Origin: Leptothermofonsia sichuanensis E412
Lineage (GTDB): Bacteria; Cyanobacteriota; Cyanobacteriia; Leptolyngbyales; Leptolyngbyaceae
Assembly: GCF_019891175.1 (NCBI RefSeq)
Contig: NZ_CP072600.1
Span: 4,650,001-4,714,000 of the forward strand
Reading direction: 5' to 3'
Length of the DNA stretch: 64,000 nt
Shown here piece by piece: positions 37,081 through 47,158 of the stretch (position 1 is the first letter of the stretch; each line of letters begins with the position of its first letter). The notes under the pieces were generated by a model that saw only the letters and a program-made list of their open reading frames with translations, had not been told where the DNA came from and made no database searches. Both the position numbers and the translations under genes were made by a program.

Positions 37081-38100
37081 GTGAACCGCCTCGATTCAGA
37101 CCGTCCCAAAGTCCTTGTTGTCGATGATCATCCCGCTAGCCGCATGACGGCAGTTGCGCTGCTGTCCGTTGAAGGGTATGACGTTTTAGAAGCAGAGAGT
37201 GGACCAGATGCTCTGGAATCTGTTCTTTCCGGCAATCCTGACCTGATTTTGCTGGATGTGATGATGCCCGGAATGGATGGGTTTGAGGTTTGTCGCTGGC
37301 TCAAACAGGATGAGCAAACCCGGTTAACCCCGGTTGTATTTGTAACTGCCCTGGACGATCGCCGCGCCCGCTTAAAGGGCATCGAGGCAGGGGGAGATGA
37401 CTTTCTGACCAAGCCGTTTGATCAGCTTGAACTGTCTGCACGGGTCAAGTCCCTGATTCGCCAAAAACGGTTGAATGAAGACCTGGACCATGCAGAACAG
37501 GTACTTTTTTCAATCGCCCGCACCGTTGAAAGCCGTGACCCGAATACGGGCGATCACTGTGAGCGCCTGGTAAAGCTAGGTAAGGCATTTGGTGAATTCT
37601 TAGGACTATCTCGTACCGAAATTCGCGATTTAATGTGGGGTGGTTATCTGCATGACATTGGCAAAGTTGGCATTCCAGATGCCATTCTGCTGAAGCCAGG
37701 CAAGTTCACTCCCGAAGAATGGAAGATCATGCAGCAACATGTTCTGATCGGTGAGAAAATTTGCCAGCCATTGCGGACCATGCGTGGGGTAATTCCAATT
37801 ATTCGCTGCCATCATGAGCGATGGGATGGAACAGGCTATCCCGACGGGTTAGCAGGGGATCAAATTCCTTTTCTGGCACAAGTGTTCCAGGTTATTGATA
37901 TCTATGATGCACTCACCAGTGAGCGCCCCTACAAGAAGGCATTTACCCCTGAAGAAGCCCTGACCATTTTGGAAGAAGAAACGGCTAAAGGGTGGCGCAA
38001 TCCAGATCTGGTCCAGAAGTTTAAAGAGTTCATTCAAATCAGTGAAATGAGATGCTCTGAACTTCCAAGGGATGTGGAGAAGCTGCCTCAGGCGGTTTAG
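37081..38100 (+). CDS. Response regulator with HD-GYP phosphodiesterase domain
   Basis: The 339-residue product starts at GTG. The receiver domain (residues ~9-125) has VVDDHPAS, the phospho-acceptor Asp in LILLDVMMPGMDG (about 60) and TKPFDQ. The HD-GYP domain follows, with HDIGKVGIPDAILLKPGKFT (about 197) and the eponymous loop HHERWDGTGYPDGLAGDQIP (about 247). RpfG-type proteins of this kind hydrolyse cyclic di-GMP when the metal ligands are intact, as they appear to be here. The partner kinase is not next to it. Its stop is followed at once by a 16-mer identical to an IS1380 terminus. Confidence 0.92.
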   Translation: MNRLDSDRPKVLVVDDHPASRMTAVALLSVEGYDVLEAESGPDALESVLSGNPDLILLDVMMPGMDGFEVCRWLKQDEQTRLTPVVFVTALDDRRARLKGIEAGGDDFLTKPFDQLELSARVKSLIRQKRLNEDLDHAEQVLFSIARTVESRDPNTGDHCERLVKLGKAFGEFLGLSRTEIRDLMWGGYLHDIGKVGIPDAILLKPGKFTPEEWKIMQQHVLIGEKICQPLRTMRGVIPIIRCHHERWDGTGYPDGLAGDQIPFLAQVFQVIDIYDALTSERPYKKAFTPEEALTILEEETAKGWRNPDLVQKFKEFIQISEMRCSELPRDVEKLPQAV

Positions 38101-40195: not shown

Positions 40196-41749
40196 CTATT
40201 CTCCATCCCGCTGCACACCCTTCATGATACGAGACAGTTCACTCTTCTCATCCACCGAAATTCGGGTTGGAGAACCACTGATAATTCGCTCAAAGTTGCT
40301 GAAGGAGTCCTTGATTTCAGGACCATGTTCTGTAATGTTGTACTCACGGATACCCTTATCGTGCCAGGAGCCGCGCATTTTGAAAACGTTGATGGCGCGG
40401 GACATTTCACCCCGAATTTCCACGTATTGCAGCATCAAGATCGTGTCTGTAATTGTGGAGATATGGGAATCGGTAATGGAGTGTGATCCCATAAATTGAT
40501 CTGTGGTGTTGGTAAAAAAGCCAGTAATCTCTTCCTGTTTGGCAAAGCCCGTTACCCCAATGACAAACTGCCGGAAAGCATTGTTACTGACCCCCCGTGC
40601 CAGGGCTGAAAGGGAATCGATCGCGATGCGGGAAGGTTGAAAATCGGCAATCTCTTGCTTGATGATTTGCAAATGATCTTCTAAACCGGAAGATTCCGGG
40701 TAGGCGCAGAGAATTTTGAGCAATCCCTTTTGCTCCAAATCTTCAAAATCAATCCCCCAGGAATAGGCATTACGAGACAGTTGGGCGCGCGACTCTTCAT
40801 AGGCAAACAGCATCGCCCGTTCGCCTCGCGTGCAGGCATCCTGCAAAAACTTGCTGACCAGCAGTGTTTTGCCTGTACCCGTTGCCCCCGTTGCCAGAAT
40901 GATCGAGTCCTTGAAAAACCCGCCTCCACACATATTGTCCAGGGTTTTGACCCCGGAAGAAACGCGGACATTGGAGGATCGCTGAGTCAATCGCATGGCT
41001 CCTAAAGGGAAGATATTAATGCCCTGATTCGTGATGGTGAAGGGATACTCCCCTTTCATATGGGTAGTTCCGCGCAACTTCAGAATTTCAATGGTGCGGC
41101 GGCGACGTTCTCCTTCCAAAACATTGCGAATAATCGCCACATTGTCAGACACAAACTCTTCCACCCCAAACCGGGCAACGGGTCCATACTCATCCACCCG
41201 CTCTGTGGTCATGATGGTAGTTGCTCCCACCTGCTTTAAGCGAGCGACCAGACGAAAAATTTCTCGCCGGACAACCGATACCGCATCATATTGTTGAAAG
41301 ACAGCGGTGACTGAATCAATGGAAACCCGTTTGGCTTTGTATTTGCGGATGGCGTACTGGATACGCTCAATCAAAGCCGATAGATCAAAGCTCCCAGCAA
41401 TTTCCTGCCCTTCTGGGTCAGGAGAGGCATCTAGAATGAATAGCTTGCCTTCGTTGACAAACTTTTGTAAGTCCCAACCAAAACTAAAGGCGTTTTTAAT
41501 GATATCAGTAGGAGATTCTTCAAAGGTAACAAAAATTCCAGGTTCATCAAAATGAATAATTCCGTTGTAAAGAAATTGAACAGCCAGCAGGGTTTTACCG
41601 GTACCGGATGTACCACTCACCAGAGTGGTGCGCCCTACGGGTAATCCTCCGTGGCTGATATCATCAAACCCTTCAATCAGGGTACGGATTTTTCGAACGC
41701 CGACTGTATTAGACTCGTTTTCCTGGGTTGTTTGATTTAACTGAGTCAT
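40196..41749 (-). CDS. kaiC: Circadian clock ATPase/kinase KaiC
   Basis: KaiC is the core of the cyanobacterial oscillator, with autokinase, autophosphatase and slow ATPase activity. The 517-residue product has two RecA-like halves. CI carries Walker A GTSGTGKT (about residue 50) and the catalytic Glu pair in VTFEESP. CII carries GATGTGKT (about 290). The phospho-site neighbourhood SHISTITDTI (about 427-436) keeps the adjacent Ser and Thr. The C-terminal tail NFERIISGSPTRISVDEKSELSRI is the KaiA-binding segment. It is the last gene of the kaiABC cluster, 177 bases after kaiB, so a separate kaiC or kaiBC promoter is possible. Confidence 0.98.
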   Translation of the reverse strand: MTQLNQTTQENESNTVGVRKIRTLIEGFDDISHGGLPVGRTTLVSGTSGTGKTLLAVQFLYNGIIHFDEPGIFVTFEESPTDIIKNAFSFGWDLQKFVNEGKLFILDASPDPEGQEIAGSFDLSALIERIQYAIRKYKAKRVSIDSVTAVFQQYDAVSVVRREIFRLVARLKQVGATTIMTTERVDEYGPVARFGVEEFVSDNVAIIRNVLEGERRRRTIEILKLRGTTHMKGEYPFTITNQGINIFPLGAMRLTQRSSNVRVSSGVKTLDNMCGGGFFKDSIILATGATGTGKTLLVSKFLQDACTRGERAMLFAYEESRAQLSRNAYSWGIDFEDLEQKGLLKILCAYPESSGLEDHLQIIKQEIADFQPSRIAIDSLSALARGVSNNAFRQFVIGVTGFAKQEEITGFFTNTTDQFMGSHSITDSHISTITDTILMLQYVEIRGEMSRAINVFKMRGSWHDKGIREYNITEHGPEIKDSFSNFERIISGSPTRISVDEKSELSRIMKGVQRDGE

Positions 41750-41926: not shown

Positions 41927-42247
41927 CTACTCTTCGAGTTCAAACCCATCATCCCGAAGTTCTTCGTAAAGTAAATCTAAGCCAATCAACACTTTTTCTC
42001 GGTTAGAAAGATCGCCAATAATTTTTCGGACCGGAGGAGGCAAAATCTTTGCCAGGGTAGGCGTTGCCAGGATTTTGTCTTCTTCAGCCAGTTGAGGGTT
42101 CTTGAGCACATCAATCACTTTGAGAGCATAAACTCCCTGAAAATCCTCTTCCAAAATGTCGTTGAGGGTCTTCAGTGCCCGGACGGAATTGGGGGTGTTT
42201 CCCGCAACGTAAAGTTTGAGGACGTAGGTTTTCTTTACAGGACTCAT
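41927..42247 (-). CDS. kaiB: Circadian clock protein KaiB
   Basis: Start ATG at 42247 gives the standard ~106-residue KaiB. The frame is open further upstream, but those residues are not family-like. The sequence [20 protein letters not shown] and the [20 protein letters not shown] stretch, then [21 protein letters not shown], are KaiB hallmarks. KaiB changes from a tetrameric ground state to a thioredoxin-like fold and then binds the KaiC CI ring and sequesters KaiA. The acidic C-terminal tail (DDGFELEE) is normal. It lies 67 bases after kaiA, consistent with cotranscription. Confidence 0.97.
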
Positions 42248-42314
42248 AGATAGATTATGTAGAAGGTACGCAATAGGCGGCAAGAGGGAGGGATGATCCA
42301 CCGGATTCCCCAAT

Positions 42315-43211
42315 TTAAGACTCTCTCGGAATGGATCGTCGATACATCTCACATAAATGAGCAATGGTGTCAATCAGGGTGAGGCGATAATCCAGCAAAA
42401 TTTCCTCACTACGCCCTTCCAATTTCAATTGTTTAGAAAATTCATCCATAAGCTCCATGTGGATTTCTACGACCTGTGCCACGGGAATATCGACAAAAAA
42501 GACCGTGTTGACGAAGTCGTCAATGCGTTGATTGAGGGAATCATCATTCGCAAAATAACGCAGAACAATATCACGATACTCAAGCTTTAGCTGGTCTAGA
42601 AGTTCCTGTTTTTCATTGGGAGACAGGTGTCGGAAAAAATTTTGGGGATTCCGTTTGTAGTACACACCCAGATACCCTAATCGCTCTTTCAATTTCTCAG
42701 TTAATCGTTGCTGTTGCGATCTGAGGAAATGTTGTGTAACCAGGCTGGTTGCCTGATCAGGTGCAGAGTCAGACTTTCTGAGCTTGCAAGAACGAGAAAG
42801 CTGAATAAATTGTGCGATCGCCCGGTCTATATAGCCACCCAGTTGGTCAACCTGAGACCGGGTCAGACAAATTTCGGCAGTGTGGTAGAAAAAATAGACT
42901 TCTCCTTCAGTAAAACTCGATGAAGATTTTATGGGATCCGGCGGGTGGTCAGCACTGATGATGATTGCGGGCAGCAGAATTGCCTGACCATGCAGCCAGT
43001 TGGCCAACAAGGACAGGTCTGAATCAGCCTCCAGGATCAGACAGTCGAGCCGCTGTTTGTCTTGATCGATGAGGGCAAAAAACTCCTCGGTGGATCCAGG
43101 CTGGATGACTGTGTAGTAATCATCACTCAAACGCTCCATCACCGCCTGTTTCAGCGGCTCTGTCTTGAGGAAGAGTCCTATCAGTAAGTGGGCAGACAAT
43201 TGGGCAGACAA
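42315..43211 (-). CDS. kaiA: Circadian clock protein KaiA (full length)
   Basis: KaiA stimulates KaiC autophosphorylation by binding its C-terminal tail. The 298-residue product has both parts: an N-terminal pseudo-receiver domain (about 1-135, with poorly kept phosphorylation residues) and the C-terminal four-helix KaiA domain (about 180-290) with [20 protein letters not shown] and [25 protein letters not shown]. It is thus the long form, unlike the short KaiA of some Nostoc species. It opens the kaiA-kaiB-kaiC cluster and is divergent from the hybrid kinase gene. Confidence 0.96.
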
Positions 43212-43561
43212 TGGATTAATCGAGGAACTAAGGGTAGGAGGAGCTAAAGTGGAGGACAGAACGTGTTTACATCTCTGTAAAAAGTCTGTAAAAACGTTTA
43301 AACTTTTCTTAATACTTCAACACTTAATTAATTATAATTACAAACCGCTCGCTCTCTACCTGTGCACGCTTTAGATAAAGCGATAATTGAGCTACAACAG
43401 TGGTTGCAGGCTTTGAATTCCTGTCCATTTTCTTTGTATCCGTGTTTGCCCCCTTCCCGTTGTCCTCAACCTCTGGTCAGGGGCTTCTGTTCCAAGTTCT
43501 GCCCTGGTGACCTTGCCAAAGGCCCTTTGTAGAGTCTGCTCTGTGCCGTGTCCCTCCAGGC
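43212..43561. other. kaiA / hybrid kinase divergent promoter region
   Basis: These 350 bases must hold the kai promoter on one strand and the kinase promoter on the other. The part next to kaiA is AT-rich (about 43290-43345, including TTAATTAATTATAATTAC). A GTG-started 56-codon plus-strand frame at 43362-43532 has five Cys residues but no clear ribosome site, so it is not called as a gene. Confidence 0.5.
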
Positions 43562-46500
43562 ATGTTTTCCATGCTTTTACCCCATGTCTATCTGCGAGAA
43601 TTTATTCAGCCAGTTCCTACCTGCCTCGAAACTGCGGATTTGAGGACTGTGTTTGAGGCGTTCGGTTGGAATGACAGACAATCTCCGATCAAAGATCTCC
43701 TGCCGGACCGTCTGGTTTTAGTCGATGGACAGGGGTGCCCCACAGGGTTGGTGCGGCTCTCTCGATTGTTACCCCATCTATTGCGAAGAGGGCTGGTTGA
43801 GCAACAGCCTTCACTGAAGCAGGCTGGAAAGTCAGCGAACTTAACCGACCCTGCTCAACGAATTGAACCTTCGCTGGTTGAGCCAGTCAGAATCTGGGCA
43901 GGTGAACTAACAATTGAACAGTTTTTACTTGACTGCAATGCCCAGGTTCAGGCGGATGGTGTGATCATTGGCGATCGCGGAGAATACCTGGGAATACTTG
44001 ATCCCGCCCATTTGCTCCGGTTTTTGGCGATCCATTTAGCCAGACAATCGGCAATCCAGAAGGATGGCAGGAGTCAAGAGATTAGTGAACCTGCCATCCC
44101 TGAAGTGTCCACCCATGAGGCATCCCCCCGTGAATCGGATGCAACCAGACATCAGAAAACGTTGAGCTATCAGCAACGGCTGACAACCCGGCTGGCACAG
44201 CAGCTTCTGGCACAAAAGGAAGAGCTGACACAACAGGTTAAGTCCCAACAGGAGACGATTCACCAGCTTATGGAGCAGGCGGGCAAACATCAGACGGTGG
44301 GGTTATCGCTGATGCAGTCTCAGTTGCCCCAGACAGCTTTTCTGTCTTCTCCAGCGGGGGATCCGCTACCCCCACTGCTGCAATTGTTAGAGCAGTTGCC
44401 CTTACCGCTGATGCTCCAGGCTGGAGATGGGCAGGTGCTGGCACAAAATTCTGTCTGGCAACGGCAGGTAGAAGACTGGTTAGACTCCGACCGGATCCGC
44501 CAGGAAATGGTCAATCTGTTAGACGCACCCACCGATGCATCTACACAACCGGCAGACCTTTTAGCTAAAGGGGGTGAGTCCGGGTTGACTGCAAGCTGGT
44601 GTCATCTTGGCTCCAAACCAGGCACCTGTATTTGCTCCTGCCCACTGAAAAATGGTCAGGAACAGGTGTTTCAATTTGTCAAAATTCCAGTGGGGAGTCT
44701 GGCATCTCCTTCGAAGAGTGGGGCGATCGCAACCCTGCCAGCCCCTCATCCTGCGCCCCACACTGTTGTTGAGGAGGCGGTTTTCGCCCAACCCCTGTGT
44801 CTGGCATCCCCCACTCCAGCCATGCCACAGGCTCCGGTTGCGCCGGCAGGACTGGTTAATCCAATTTACTCCAGCCGGTCAGAGCCTGAACCAGGCCAGC
44901 CAGCCAGTCCGCCCGGCTCGAACACCCTATGGCTCGTACTGGCACAGGACATTACAGAGCAACAGCAATTGGCCAGGGAATTGACGGCTAAAAACGTAGA
45001 TCTGATTCACCTGAACCGGTTGAAAGACGAGTTTCTGGCATGTATCAGCCATGAACTGCGCACTCCCCTGACTGCCGTTTTAGGTTTATCCAGTCTGCTG
45101 AAAGACCAGACTCTGGGCGAAATGAATCAGCGTCAGGTGCACTATGCCCAACTCATTTATCAGAGCGGTCGGCACCTGATGGCAGTCGTGAATGACATTC
45201 TGGATTTAACTCGGATGGAAACCGGGCAGTTTGACCTGGTTTCAGAACCCGTTGATATTAGAAGCGTTTGCAGTCGGGCATTTGAGCAGGCACAGCAGTT
45301 GCGGTTATTAGATGAGAAACAGAGCCTGGACGAGAACAACCCGTTGCCAGCCTTTTCGTTAGAAGTAGAATCTGGGCTGGAGACGATCGTGGCTGATGGA
45401 CAACGCCTGCGCCAGATGTTATTCCATCTCCTGAGCAATGCTCTCAAATTCACAGAACCCGACAAGCAAATTGGGCTGAGAGTGAACCGCTGGGGCGGCT
45501 GGATTGCCTTCACCGTCTGGGATGAGGGGATTGGGATTCCAGCGGAGAAGCAACATCTGGTTTTCCAGAAATTTCAACAGCTAGAAAATCCCCTGACCCG
45601 TCGCTTTGAGGGCACTGGCCTGGGTTTAGTCCTGACTCAACGACTGGCGCGTTTGCATGGGGGGGATGTCAGCTTTCTTTCAAAGGAAGGGCAGGGGAGC
45701 CAGTTTACCATATTGCTGCCGCCCAGTCCGCCAGGGAAGTCAGCGATCGCGGTTAGCCGGGATGAACTGGATCCGGCACAGAATATCTATCCTGGTGGTC
45801 GAGTTGAGTTGAATGCCCCCCGCCCCCCGGCAGTGCCCTGGCATTCAGTCCATCAGGCCCCTATCCATCTCAATTCTCTACAGGATAAATTACGTCAACG
45901 CCTGGTATTGATTGTGGAAGCGGCTCCTCCGTTCATTGAAACGCTGACTGAACAACTGATAGGGCTGGGCTATCGGGTGGTGATTGCCCGGTCAGGAACG
46001 GAAGCCTTAGAAAAGGCTCGTCGTCTGCAACCCTGCACGATTTTCTTGAACCCGATTCTGCCGCTACTGTCTGGATGGGATGTGCTAACTCTGTTAAAGT
46101 CCAGCCCTGAAACCCGCCAAATTCCAGTCGTGATGATGGCGACCAAAGTGGATGAAACCCATACTCACCAGAATCGTGCGGATGGCTGGCTCAGTTTGCC
46201 GGTTCAGGTAAAAGCCCTGCGTCAAACCTTAGGGCAACTGAGGGCTGAACCAGAGGATTCTGTCTCTCCCAATCGTTCATCTAACCGGTTGACCATTCTT
46301 CGCCTCAGTCCCGGTGTCTGGAGCAATCATCAACGGGCGATCGCCACGGCTGACCTGACCCACCTTTTTCATTCCCATCACTACCACATCCTGGAAGCCG
46401 ATGATCTGGAGCAGGCAGAACTCCTGGCGCGCGTCTGGAAGCCAAACATTGTTTTGCTGGATGGCACCCCCATCGATGCTACCCTTTACTTCCAGCAGTT

Positions 46501-47158
46501 TAGCCAGCAGACCTTTCTGTCATCATTGCCGCTGGTTACCCTGAATCAGGAAACAACCCAGGCAGCCAACCAGATGCCGGGGTTGCTGGTATTTCCCTGT
46601 CTGGCGGCATTGGTCCCATCCCCTGCAACCCGGAACGAAATAGAAACTTCTGCCCTGCTCCAGGTGATTCAGATTGCAGCTGGTTATGCCTGGCGACCTT
46701 CTATTCTGGCACTGAACCTGGCAACGCTCCCAGCTACGCCTGAAGATGCCCTCCCCATGGCACCTGATCAAACACTGGGGAAGGGGCTGAAAGAAGGAGA
46801 ATGGCTACAGGCATTAACCCAGTATCTGCAAACCGCTGGTTTGCGGGGACTGACTGGCCGCTGCTGGCAGGAAGTTTTGCAGCAGGTGAAGTCTCAAAGC
46901 ATTGACCTGCTGTTAATTTGCTGGACAGAAGTAGAGCCTCAAGCCAGGACGCTGGAAATGCTCTCTGCCCTCCGCCAATTAGGGGAAAAGCCCCCCATTT
47001 TGGTGTTGGATCACCGCGATCGCGAAGCTGGTAATCTTCAATCTCCAGTCGTGACGACTCTACCCATCATCCTGCAACAACTGGCAACCCAAATCCTGCC
47101 CCCTTCCCTGCCGATGGAATCCCTTCTGAAGGAGATTTATAAAGTTTTGAGGGGATGA
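43562..47158 (+). CDS. Hybrid sensor histidine kinase with CBS-like N-terminus and degenerate receivers
   Basis: In this 1198-residue protein, residues ~15-180 look like a CBS-domain pair (DLLPDRLVLVDGQGCPTGLV and VIIGDRGEYLGILDPAHLL). A coiled coil (~195-245) and a PAS-like stretch interrupted by a Pro/Ala-rich linker (~380-460) follow. The kinase core has the H-box SHELRTPLTAVLG (about 496), N-box LLSNALKFTE, DEGIGIP and GTGLGLVL. Then come two receiver-like domains. In the first, the phospho-Asp position reads IFLNPILPLLSG (Asn, about 826) and the acidic pocket is VEAAPP. The second keeps LLDGTPID but lacks other residues. It is divergent from kaiA. A clock link is suggested by position only. 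Confidence 0.85.
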   Translation: MFSMLLPHVYLREFIQPVPTCLETADLRTVFEAFGWNDRQSPIKDLLPDRLVLVDGQGCPTGLVRLSRLLPHLLRRGLVEQQPSLKQAGKSANLTDPAQRIEPSLVEPVRIWAGELTIEQFLLDCNAQVQADGVIIGDRGEYLGILDPAHLLRFLAIHLARQSAIQKDGRSQEISEPAIPEVSTHEASPRESDATRHQKTLSYQQRLTTRLAQQLLAQKEELTQQVKSQQETIHQLMEQAGKHQTVGLSLMQSQLPQTAFLSSPAGDPLPPLLQLLEQLPLPLMLQAGDGQVLAQNSVWQRQVEDWLDSDRIRQEMVNLLDAPTDASTQPADLLAKGGESGLTASWCHLGSKPGTCICSCPLKNGQEQVFQFVKIPVGSLASPSKSGAIATLPAPHPAPHTVVEEAVFAQPLCLASPTPAMPQAPVAPAGLVNPIYSSRSEPEPGQPASPPGSNTLWLVLAQDITEQQQLARELTAKNVDLIHLNRLKDEFLACISHELRTPLTAVLGLSSLLKDQTLGEMNQRQVHYAQLIYQSGRHLMAVVNDILDLTRMETGQFDLVSEPVDIRSVCSRAFEQAQQLRLLDEKQSLDENNPLPAFSLEVESGLETIVADGQRLRQMLFHLLSNALKFTEPDKQIGLRVNRWGGWIAFTVWDEGIGIPAEKQHLVFQKFQQLENPLTRRFEGTGLGLVLTQRLARLHGGDVSFLSKEGQGSQFTILLPPSPPGKSAIAVSRDELDPAQNIYPGGRVELNAPRPPAVPWHSVHQAPIHLNSLQDKLRQRLVLIVEAAPPFIETLTEQLIGLGYRVVIARSGTEALEKARRLQPCTIFLNPILPLLSGWDVLTLLKSSPETRQIPVVMMATKVDETHTHQNRADGWLSLPVQVKALRQTLGQLRAEPEDSVSPNRSSNRLTILRLSPGVWSNHQRAIATADLTHLFHSHHYHILEADDLEQAELLARVWKPNIVLLDGTPIDATLYFQQFSQQTFLSSLPLVTLNQETTQAANQMPGLLVFPCLAALVPSPATRNEIETSALLQVIQIAAGYAWRPSILALNLATLPATPEDALPMAPDQTLGKGLKEGEWLQALTQYLQTAGLRGLTGRCWQEVLQQVKSQSIDLLLICWTEVEPQARTLEMLSALRQLGEKPPILVLDHRDREAGNLQSPVVTTLPIILQQLATQILPPSLPMESLLKEIYKVLRG

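Follow-up and report, generated by a model that had tools for sequence, protein, structure and literature searches.

A candidate clock-associated hybrid histidine kinase with pseudo-receiver domains encoded divergently from kaiA in cyanobacteria

Introduction

The wiring of the cyanobacterial circadian clock has been worked out mainly in Synechococcus elongatus. CikA is defined by a GAF domain in front of its HisKA domain. SasA is a histidine kinase linked to the clock, and in this it may resemble the protein described here, a hybrid histidine kinase encoded divergently from kaiA in a 64,000-nucleotide stretch of the genome of Leptothermofonsia sichuanensis E412 (contig NZ_CP072600.1, positions 4,650,001 to 4,714,000). 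We call this whole stretch the window, and coordinates refer to it. According to passages of a review, the CikA pseudo-receiver inhibits autophosphorylation and binds KaiB through its α1-β2-α2 surface, and a pseudo-receiver restrains the HisKA core of the Caulobacter hybrid kinase ShkA (PMC12632262).

Like CikA, the window kinase is cyanobacterial, and in both proteins a receiver-like domain comes after the HisKA-HATPase core. The window kinase differs from CikA in its CBS-pair fold, its three pseudo-receivers, and the location of its gene beside kaiA, and Pfam gave no GAF match in it at E ≤ 1. SasA is set apart by an N-terminal KaiB-like domain (PF07689, E 2.3e-29 in the SasA candidate L280 of the window genome), which the window kinase lacks. 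The hybrid kinase HrmK (NF038297) has a kinase/receiver core alignable over residues 460-888; however, the window kinase reaches 273 bits against a cut-off of 725, which places it outside that family. The N-terminal pseudo-receiver of KaiA, the product of the adjacent gene, is receiver-like and has no acceptor aspartate, but its profile link to the third pseudo-receiver of the kinase is weak and unsupported by genome-wide ranking. The likeness to ShkA lies in shared domain types, and the ShkA structure 6qrj is among the fold matches of the first pseudo-receiver.

The consulted passages on the clock gene set and kaiA evolution (PMC5520375, PMC8113500, PMC11372060) do not mention such a gene. 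No description of it as a clock component was recognised in passages of open-licence full texts, searched in part with guessed locus tags. A passage of PMC8064755 gives kaiA of Nostoc sp. PCC 7120 as alr2884. The gene all2883, which by its number should be next to alr2884 on the opposite strand, appears in the column headed 'Kinases' of a table of predicted CRP targets (excerpt of PMC2633013).

The receivers of this kinase family are pseudo-receivers and are conserved as such, retaining a receiver fold without the residues for phosphotransfer. Both the degeneracy of the motif and the divergent gene order are seen in dozens of genera and are thus beyond chance. We regard the kinase as a strong candidate clock component, and genomes resembling that of S. 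elongatus appear, from their sequences, to lack its gene.

Domain organization of the kinase

A sequence-only reading of the window had described a hybrid kinase divergent from kaiA with a CBS-like sensing part. The open reading frame is exact, and the starts of the two genes are 350 nucleotides apart. Pfam identifies a HisKA domain (residues 488-555), a HATPase_c domain (residues 612-721), and a single Response_reg domain (residues 782-887). With a phospho-acceptor histidine and a HATPase_c domain carrying N, G1, and G2 boxes, the protein is a HisKA hybrid kinase.

In an AlphaFold2 model (predicted local distance difference test, pLDDT, 83), residues 1-163 adopt a CBS-pair fold. The top PDB matches of this segment in Foldseek and VIA are, judging by their titles, CBS-domain chains with Z scores of about 10-12. 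The N-terminus is predicted to be a tandem CBS pair, which agrees with the sensing part proposed earlier. Pfam gave no CBS match for the window kinase itself, and weak ones for orthologues L089 (E 0.017) and L140 (E 0.013). The ribose-binding aspartate typical of CBS motifs is not evident in the consensus of the CBS part (alignment A3). The segment of residues 262-480 has no Pfam match and is putatively PAS-like, as judged from the alignment.

The model of residues 770-1198 (mean pLDDT 85, predicted template modelling score 0.61, 54 sequences) comprises three successive units of alternating strands and helices, the pseudo-receivers PsR1, PsR2, and PsR3. The fold search of this model covered PsR1; PsR2 and PsR3, which have no Pfam match, are receiver-like by model topology.

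Degenerate receivers and an invariant histidine

Orthologues were collected by profile score, divergent orientation, and a length of at least 550 amino acids. The 107 distinct proteins were aligned, and 91 with less than 85% identity were retained. The first receiver of the window kinase carries Asn830, within the motif FLNPILP, at the phospho-acceptor position, as the earlier reading had noted, together with an alanine at the Thr/Ser position and a leucine at the Lys position. The additional claim of a missing acidic pocket was slightly overstated: the second acid is replaced by Ala787, but Glu786 is retained.

The same pattern extends across the family. The acceptor position of the first receiver is Asn in 76 of 90 orthologues, Ser in four, Asp in two (L086 and L100), and another residue in eight. 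The first acid is Glu or Asp in 83 of 90, the second position is never acidic, and the Lys position is never Lys (Leu in 75/91). The second receiver has an acceptor Asp in 64 of 89 orthologues and Glu in 13, with Phe or Tyr at the Lys position in 88 of 90. A third receiver was found in 61 of 91 orthologues, with Cys at the acceptor position in 36 of them. A first or second receiver with a complete set of residues (Asp, acidic pair, Thr/Ser, and Lys) occurs in none of the 91 proteins. Phosphate must therefore pass from His497 to a separate regulator, if it is transferred at all.

The position of His497 is His in all 91 orthologues. At least one of the seven checked kinase residues is altered in 15 of the 91, some by single changes, and the histidine never is. 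Among the 66 orthologues of at least 900 amino acids, 65 have all seven residues, and the first receiver carries Asn in 63 and Ser in three. A Glu at position +1 from the histidine and Thr, Ser, or Asn at +4, which constitute the HisKA phosphatase motif, are present in 89 of 91.

Conservation of the gene pair

The kaiA loci of class-mate genomes were located by PF07688 matches, among the matches listed; 343 of 388 genomes were positive, and 57 of 58 in a second search. Mostly one locus was taken for each genus, together with some 7 kb of upstream sequence if the contig was long enough. This gave 132 loci besides the window, and 130 were scored after L080 and L278 had been dropped at contig ends; one of these (L143) was selected from its kinase match and is hence biased. 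A locus was counted as positive if a divergent open reading frame within 2 kb had a summed profile score of at least 190 and a HisKA/HATPase match. L082, whose gene is broken, was scored as positive. At L082:2995-5930 (G007), the homologue beside kaiA is split over several frames, as in a pseudogene or a sequencing error.

A divergent orthologue adjoins kaiA in 86 of 130 loci, belonging to 26 of 39 families; the pairing noted in the sequence-only reading is widespread. Positive loci per family were 18/19 in f1, 10/13 in f13, 2/2 in f22, 7/9 in f23, 12/12 in f24, 2/2 in f25, 3/9 in f26, 3/6 in f31, 11/11 in f32, and 2/3 in f34, and all of sixteen further families represented by one locus. No kinase stands beside kaiA in f2 (0/4), f5 (0/3), f11 (0/2), f12 (0/2), f16 (0/2), f19 (0/3), f36 (0/4), f37 (0/2), f40 (0/2), and four single-locus families. 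We guess f12 to be S. elongatus-like, f2 Cyanobiaceae-like, f32 Nostocaceae-like, and genus g46 Thermosynechococcus-like.

The gap between the kinase and kaiA has a median of 363 nucleotides and is shorter than 700 nucleotides in 80 of 85 loci. As a synteny control, the acyltransferase gene on the far side of the window kinase recurs in none of the 86 positive stretches, whereas kaiB is present in 85. Among named loci, which are the best-scoring 80 of 507 and not a random sample, the arrangement is found in Phormidesmis priestleyi ULC007 (L208), Microcoleus vaginatus HSN003 (L192), Oscillatoria sp. PCC 10802 (L158), and Microcystis wesenbergii FACHB-1317 (L206). The kinase does not lie beside kaiA in Crocosphaera watsonii WH 8501 (L219) and Arthrospira sp. 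PCC 9108 (L218). Loci of lineages without the kinase were read as carrying unrelated genes, for example rplU, murD-like, and GMP-synthase-like genes. Remnants of the kinase at such loci were considered and rejected, as the flanking frames of 16 of them look like unrelated genes.

Co-occurrence with kaiA in whole genomes

At E ≤ 1e-3, 271 of the 388 genomes gave a match to a PsR2 profile (A4). At E ≤ 1e-10, a hand count gave 226 genomes, consisting of 221 of the 343 kaiA-positive and five of the 45 kaiA-negative ones. Those five (G195, G261, G279, G294, and G361) are 69-87% complete, so kaiA may simply be unassembled in them. With completeness of at least 90% and contamination of at most 5% required, 36 kaiA-negative genomes remain, and none of them has a PsR2 match at E ≤ 1e-10. 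In the draft assemblies G002, G295, G305, G330, and G368, PsR2 and kaiA were matched on separate contigs; the kinase gene can therefore exist apart from kaiA.

As a separate observation, two kaiA matches contain internal stops (G371:C3:13593-13949 and G252:C3:2240831-2241142), which points to possible kaiA decay in members of f35 and f32.

Relation to CikA and SasA

The window genome encodes a SasA candidate (L280) and a CikA-type candidate (L286) elsewhere, and both are proteins distinct from the window kinase. The CikA and SasA labels (L286 and L298-L300; L280) were given from domain content, length, and the tree. In a quick maximum-likelihood tree of 92 histidine kinase cores (56 neighbour kinases and 36 other rows), a branch with support of 100 divides the neighbour kinases from 26 other hybrid kinases, among which is the CikA-type clade. 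The CikA-type clade (L286, L298, L299, and L300) has a support of 99 in the Shimodaira-Hasegawa-like approximate likelihood ratio test, and the family of the window kinase is outside it. The side of the neighbour kinases also holds seven refetched neighbour kinases (L292, L296, L297, L303-L305, and L316) and three rows on long branches (L280, L301, and L315), next to which the neighbour kinase L255 is placed. Support is weak at many inner forks. Because SasA is on a long branch among weak forks, its difference from the window kinase is drawn from domain content. The distinctness from SasA and CikA claimed in the sequence-only reading is thus upheld by the separate candidates in the same genome, by domain content, and, for CikA, by the tree. 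By our own reading, the S. elongatus-like CikA-type proteins L299 and L300 have no acceptor aspartate, as in the window kinase, whereas the receiver of L286 carries an Asp.

Loss of the ATP-binding domain

In five shortened proteins of family f13 (L085, L090, L091, L093, and L228), Pfam HisKA is present and HATPase_c is absent at E ≤ 0.1. The HATPase_c match of L231 is 0.044. L115, L116, L089, and L140 are still above the HATPase_c cut-off and have altered motifs. A short, fast-evolving version of the kinase lies beside kaiA at L115:4175-6304 in G030, a small-genome genus that we guess to be Thermosynechococcus.

Domain scores were calculated against profiles built from intact members for 26 listed proteins. 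In L085, L090, L091, and L093, the ATPase part scores 24-46 bits versus a median of 220, and PsR1 6-35 versus 178. The DHp domain (68-85 versus 144) and PsR2 (126-136 versus 159) are better kept. L248 and L252 have low ATPase scores (40 and 10) and retain DHp. The ATPase score of L255 is partial (98), and its CBS part and PsR2 are gone. The His box is constant in all 26 proteins. PsR2 as a constant partner of the His domain was considered and is not general, being weak or absent in L238, L245, L246, and L255, which retain the ATPase domain and so show the reverse of the f13 pattern.

Since the ATPase domain has been lost and the His domain kept in some lineages, the conserved function of the family may be something other than kinase activity. 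The domain scores, together with retention of the histidine and of the +1 and +4 residues, suggest a DHp function that need not use ATP. Selection may be strongest on a phosphatase or docking activity of DHp. Even an altered ATPase domain might in principle bind ATP, and the fast-evolving members lie on long branches.

Proposed function and alternatives

The family is real and conserved, differs from SasA and CikA, and is, on genomic grounds, probably linked to the clock. We propose that it is a signalling kinase or phosphatase of the clock locus, which acts on a separate response regulator and uses its pseudo-receivers as gating or docking modules; we give this proposal an even chance. The CBS-pair and PAS-like inputs would set the conformation of the HisKA dimer. 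His497 would exchange phosphate with a separate response regulator, because the receivers of the kinase itself cannot accept it; RpaA, or a regulator of the RpaA/RpaB type, is our guess. The pseudo-receivers, arranged in tandem, may act as a gate on the HisKA core and as a docking site for a partner. The persistence of the divergent pair with kaiA would then reflect shared regulation and a shared role in the input or output of the Kai oscillator. We infer the clock role, from genomic evidence, as well as the partner regulator, the gating, and the docking.

Several observations weigh against this proposal. No such neighbour is present in 44 of 130 kaiA loci. Family f2, whose sampled genomes lack the kinase, supplies 26 of the 45 kaiA-negative genomes, and a close KaiC is present in all 18 of these that were tested. 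The co-occurrence is therefore phylogenetically confounded and represents one or a few events. The near-complete genome G123 (f34, g86) has no match to kaiA, close kaiC, or PsR2, and its congener G277 has all three; one deletion could have taken both neighbours in G123. The S. elongatus-like genomes G011 and G031 (f12) keep kaiA and have no PsR2 match. In G011 (L083), a gene read as rplU adjoins kaiA, in agreement with a passage placing kaiA between rplU and kaiB (PMC8113500). The decaying part of the kinase varies: PsR2 is weak (42-51) and the ATPase domain kept (169-175) in L238, L245, and L246 of f23. An HLR1-like repeat is not conserved in the 80 shared intergenic regions tested.

Sequence signs of Kai contact are also wanting. 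Profile comparison, genome ranking, and conservation by structural element gave no outstanding sign of Kai binding in PsR1-PsR3. In hhalign comparisons with a CikA receiver profile built from four CikA-type sequences, PsR1 scored 98.6 and ordinary receivers 99.7, so that PsR1 showed no particular resemblance to the CikA receiver; PsR2 and PsR3 hardly match that profile. A profile of the KaiA N-terminal domain (alignment A5, in which the window KaiA row began inside the domain) matched PsR3 at 80% and ordinary receivers at 52%, and PsR3s led the weak non-KaiA matches in the locus set, where these kinases are abundant. In 40 whole genomes, however, other frames outrank PsR3, which appears once (G149, E 0.02). 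The outranking frames are mostly about 210-270 amino acids long and presumed to be response regulators. A kinship of PsR3 with the KaiA N-domain was therefore rejected as unproven. In f32, KaiA is short (frames of 110-202 amino acids) and has no N-domain, and the kinase carries all three pseudo-receivers in 11 of 11 loci; pairing with the KaiA pseudo-receiver is thus not required. The suggestion of a clock input or output kinase in the sequence-only reading is accordingly supported in part, by the conserved pseudo-receivers, the CBS-type fold, and the kaiA neighbourhood, but not by any convincing sequence sign of Kai contact. Because the neighbourhood is conserved, the combination named there as speaking against it, a non-conserved neighbourhood plus no Kai contact, was not found.

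It is also possible, although we think it rather unlikely, that the kinase works off the Kai oscillator and its output, either as a local regulator of kaiA or kai-operon expression or as a metabolic stress kinase sharing the promoter region for co-regulation. Adjacency is the sole conserved link to kaiA that we saw, the CBS-pair fold points to an input by a metabolite or nucleotide, and the kinase gene also occurs away from kaiA in the five draft assemblies with separate contigs. However, conservation of the pair in 26 of 39 families without the other flank, and the absence of the kinase from the 36 near-complete genomes without kaiA, fit a tie to the clock better.

We speculate, with distinctly less confidence, that the family represents an uncharacterised clock protein whose conserved activity is ATP-free. 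Its HisKA dimer would act on a clock response regulator or a partner kinase, either dephosphorylating it or receiving its phosphate, with the pseudo-receivers in control, and the protein could turn into a pseudokinase in some lineages and still remain beside kaiA.

The pairing may instead be historical, an ordinary hybrid kinase having come to lie beside kaiA by chance in an early cyanobacterium and never having been separated from it. The separation of the neighbour kinases from 26 others in the tree is as expected for an old gene inherited in place, and the unrelated genes at kinase-less loci (rplU, murD-like, and GMP-synthase-like) agree with such a history. We consider it improbable, since the far-side gene of the window recurs in 0 of 86 loci while the kaiA side persisted, and the lineage-specific loss of some domains, sparing the His domain, points to ongoing selection.

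Least probable is a CikA-like kinase with pseudo-receivers that, as in CikA, compete with KaiA by binding to KaiB within the KaiB-KaiC complex: the β2-α2 region is well conserved in PsR1 and PsR2 (mean information content 2.4-2.7) and belongs to the surface by which the CikA pseudo-receiver binds KaiB (passage of PMC12632262), but it carries a general receiver motif, other elements are equally or more conserved, and the pseudo-receiver profiles show no special resemblance to the CikA receiver.

If the kinase is a true clock part, the S. elongatus picture of SasA, CikA, and RpaA misses a component kept beside kaiA in 26 of 39 families. The keepers include a Nostocaceae-like family, Leptolyngbya relatives, and Microcystis, which would make the kinase a concrete target for learning how filamentous and bloom-forming cyanobacteria read or set their clocks. 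The drift of some members towards pseudokinases provides a natural experiment on a histidine kinase without ATP.

The kai locus and the shared intergenic region

The kaiA gene is on the strand opposite to that of the kinase and is followed downstream by kaiB and kaiC (Table 1).

Table 1 Features of the kaiA-divergent kinase and the neighbouring kai genes in the window
Feature	Position	Strand	Evidence
Hybrid histidine kinase divergent from kaiA, 1198 amino acids, ATG start	43562..47158	+	Open reading frame; Pfam HisKA, HATPase_c, Response_reg; orthologues adjoining kaiA
CBS-pair (Bateman) fold, predicted, residues 1-168	43562..44065	+	AlphaFold2 model, pLDDT 83; fold matches
Long helix, residues 194-250, probable coiled coil	44141..44311	+	AlphaFold2 secondary structure
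Putative PAS-like segment and low-complexity insert, residues 262-480	44345..45001	+	Conserved orthologue block; named by eye
HisKA (DHp), residues 488-555	45023..45226	+	PF00512 E 9.7e-17
Phospho-acceptor His497	45050-45052	+	Within HisKA; His in 91/91 orthologues
HATPase_c, residues 612-721, N, G1, and G2 boxes intact	45395..45724	+	PF02518 E 4.5e-26; motifs
PsR1 (REC1), residues 781-895	45902..46246	+	PF00072; fold Z about 20 to receivers
Asn830 replacing phospho-Asp of PsR1	46049-46051	+	Asn in 76/90 orthologues
PsR2, residues 911-1039, acidic pair absent	46292..46678	+	Alignment; AlphaFold2 model topology
PsR2 Asp967 kept; Lys replaced by Phe (VFPCL motif)	Asp967 at 46460-46462	+	Alignment
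PsR3, residues 1047-1197, without acceptor Asp	46700..47152	+	AlphaFold2 model; in 61/91 orthologues
Intergenic region separating the start of kaiA from that of the divergent kinase, 350 nucleotides	43212..43561	.	Median gap elsewhere 363 nucleotides
kaiA, TTG start as listed	42315..43211	-	PF07688 E 5.5e-65, PF21714 E 1.6e-32
kaiB, start inferred at MSPVKK within listed frame 41927-42373	41927..42247	-	TIGR02654 above cut-off
kaiC	40196..41749	-	TIGR02655 above cut-off

On the kaiA strand, the intergenic region contains the hexamer TTTACA twice, at a distance of 11 bp. The pair resembles an HLR1-type (RpaB) site. As a conserved element of the shared region, such a repeat was rejected: repeats with periods of 10 and 11 each occur in one of 80 loci, against mononucleotide-shuffle means of 0.3 and 0.1.

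Near the kai locus, an open reading frame at 37081-38100 is, by eye, of the receiver plus HD-GYP type. Besides kaiB and SasA, the window genome has two more KaiB-domain matches, L226 (G000:C1:1316433) and L227 (G000:C1:273615); one is above the cut-off in a frame of 281 amino acids and the other is weak.

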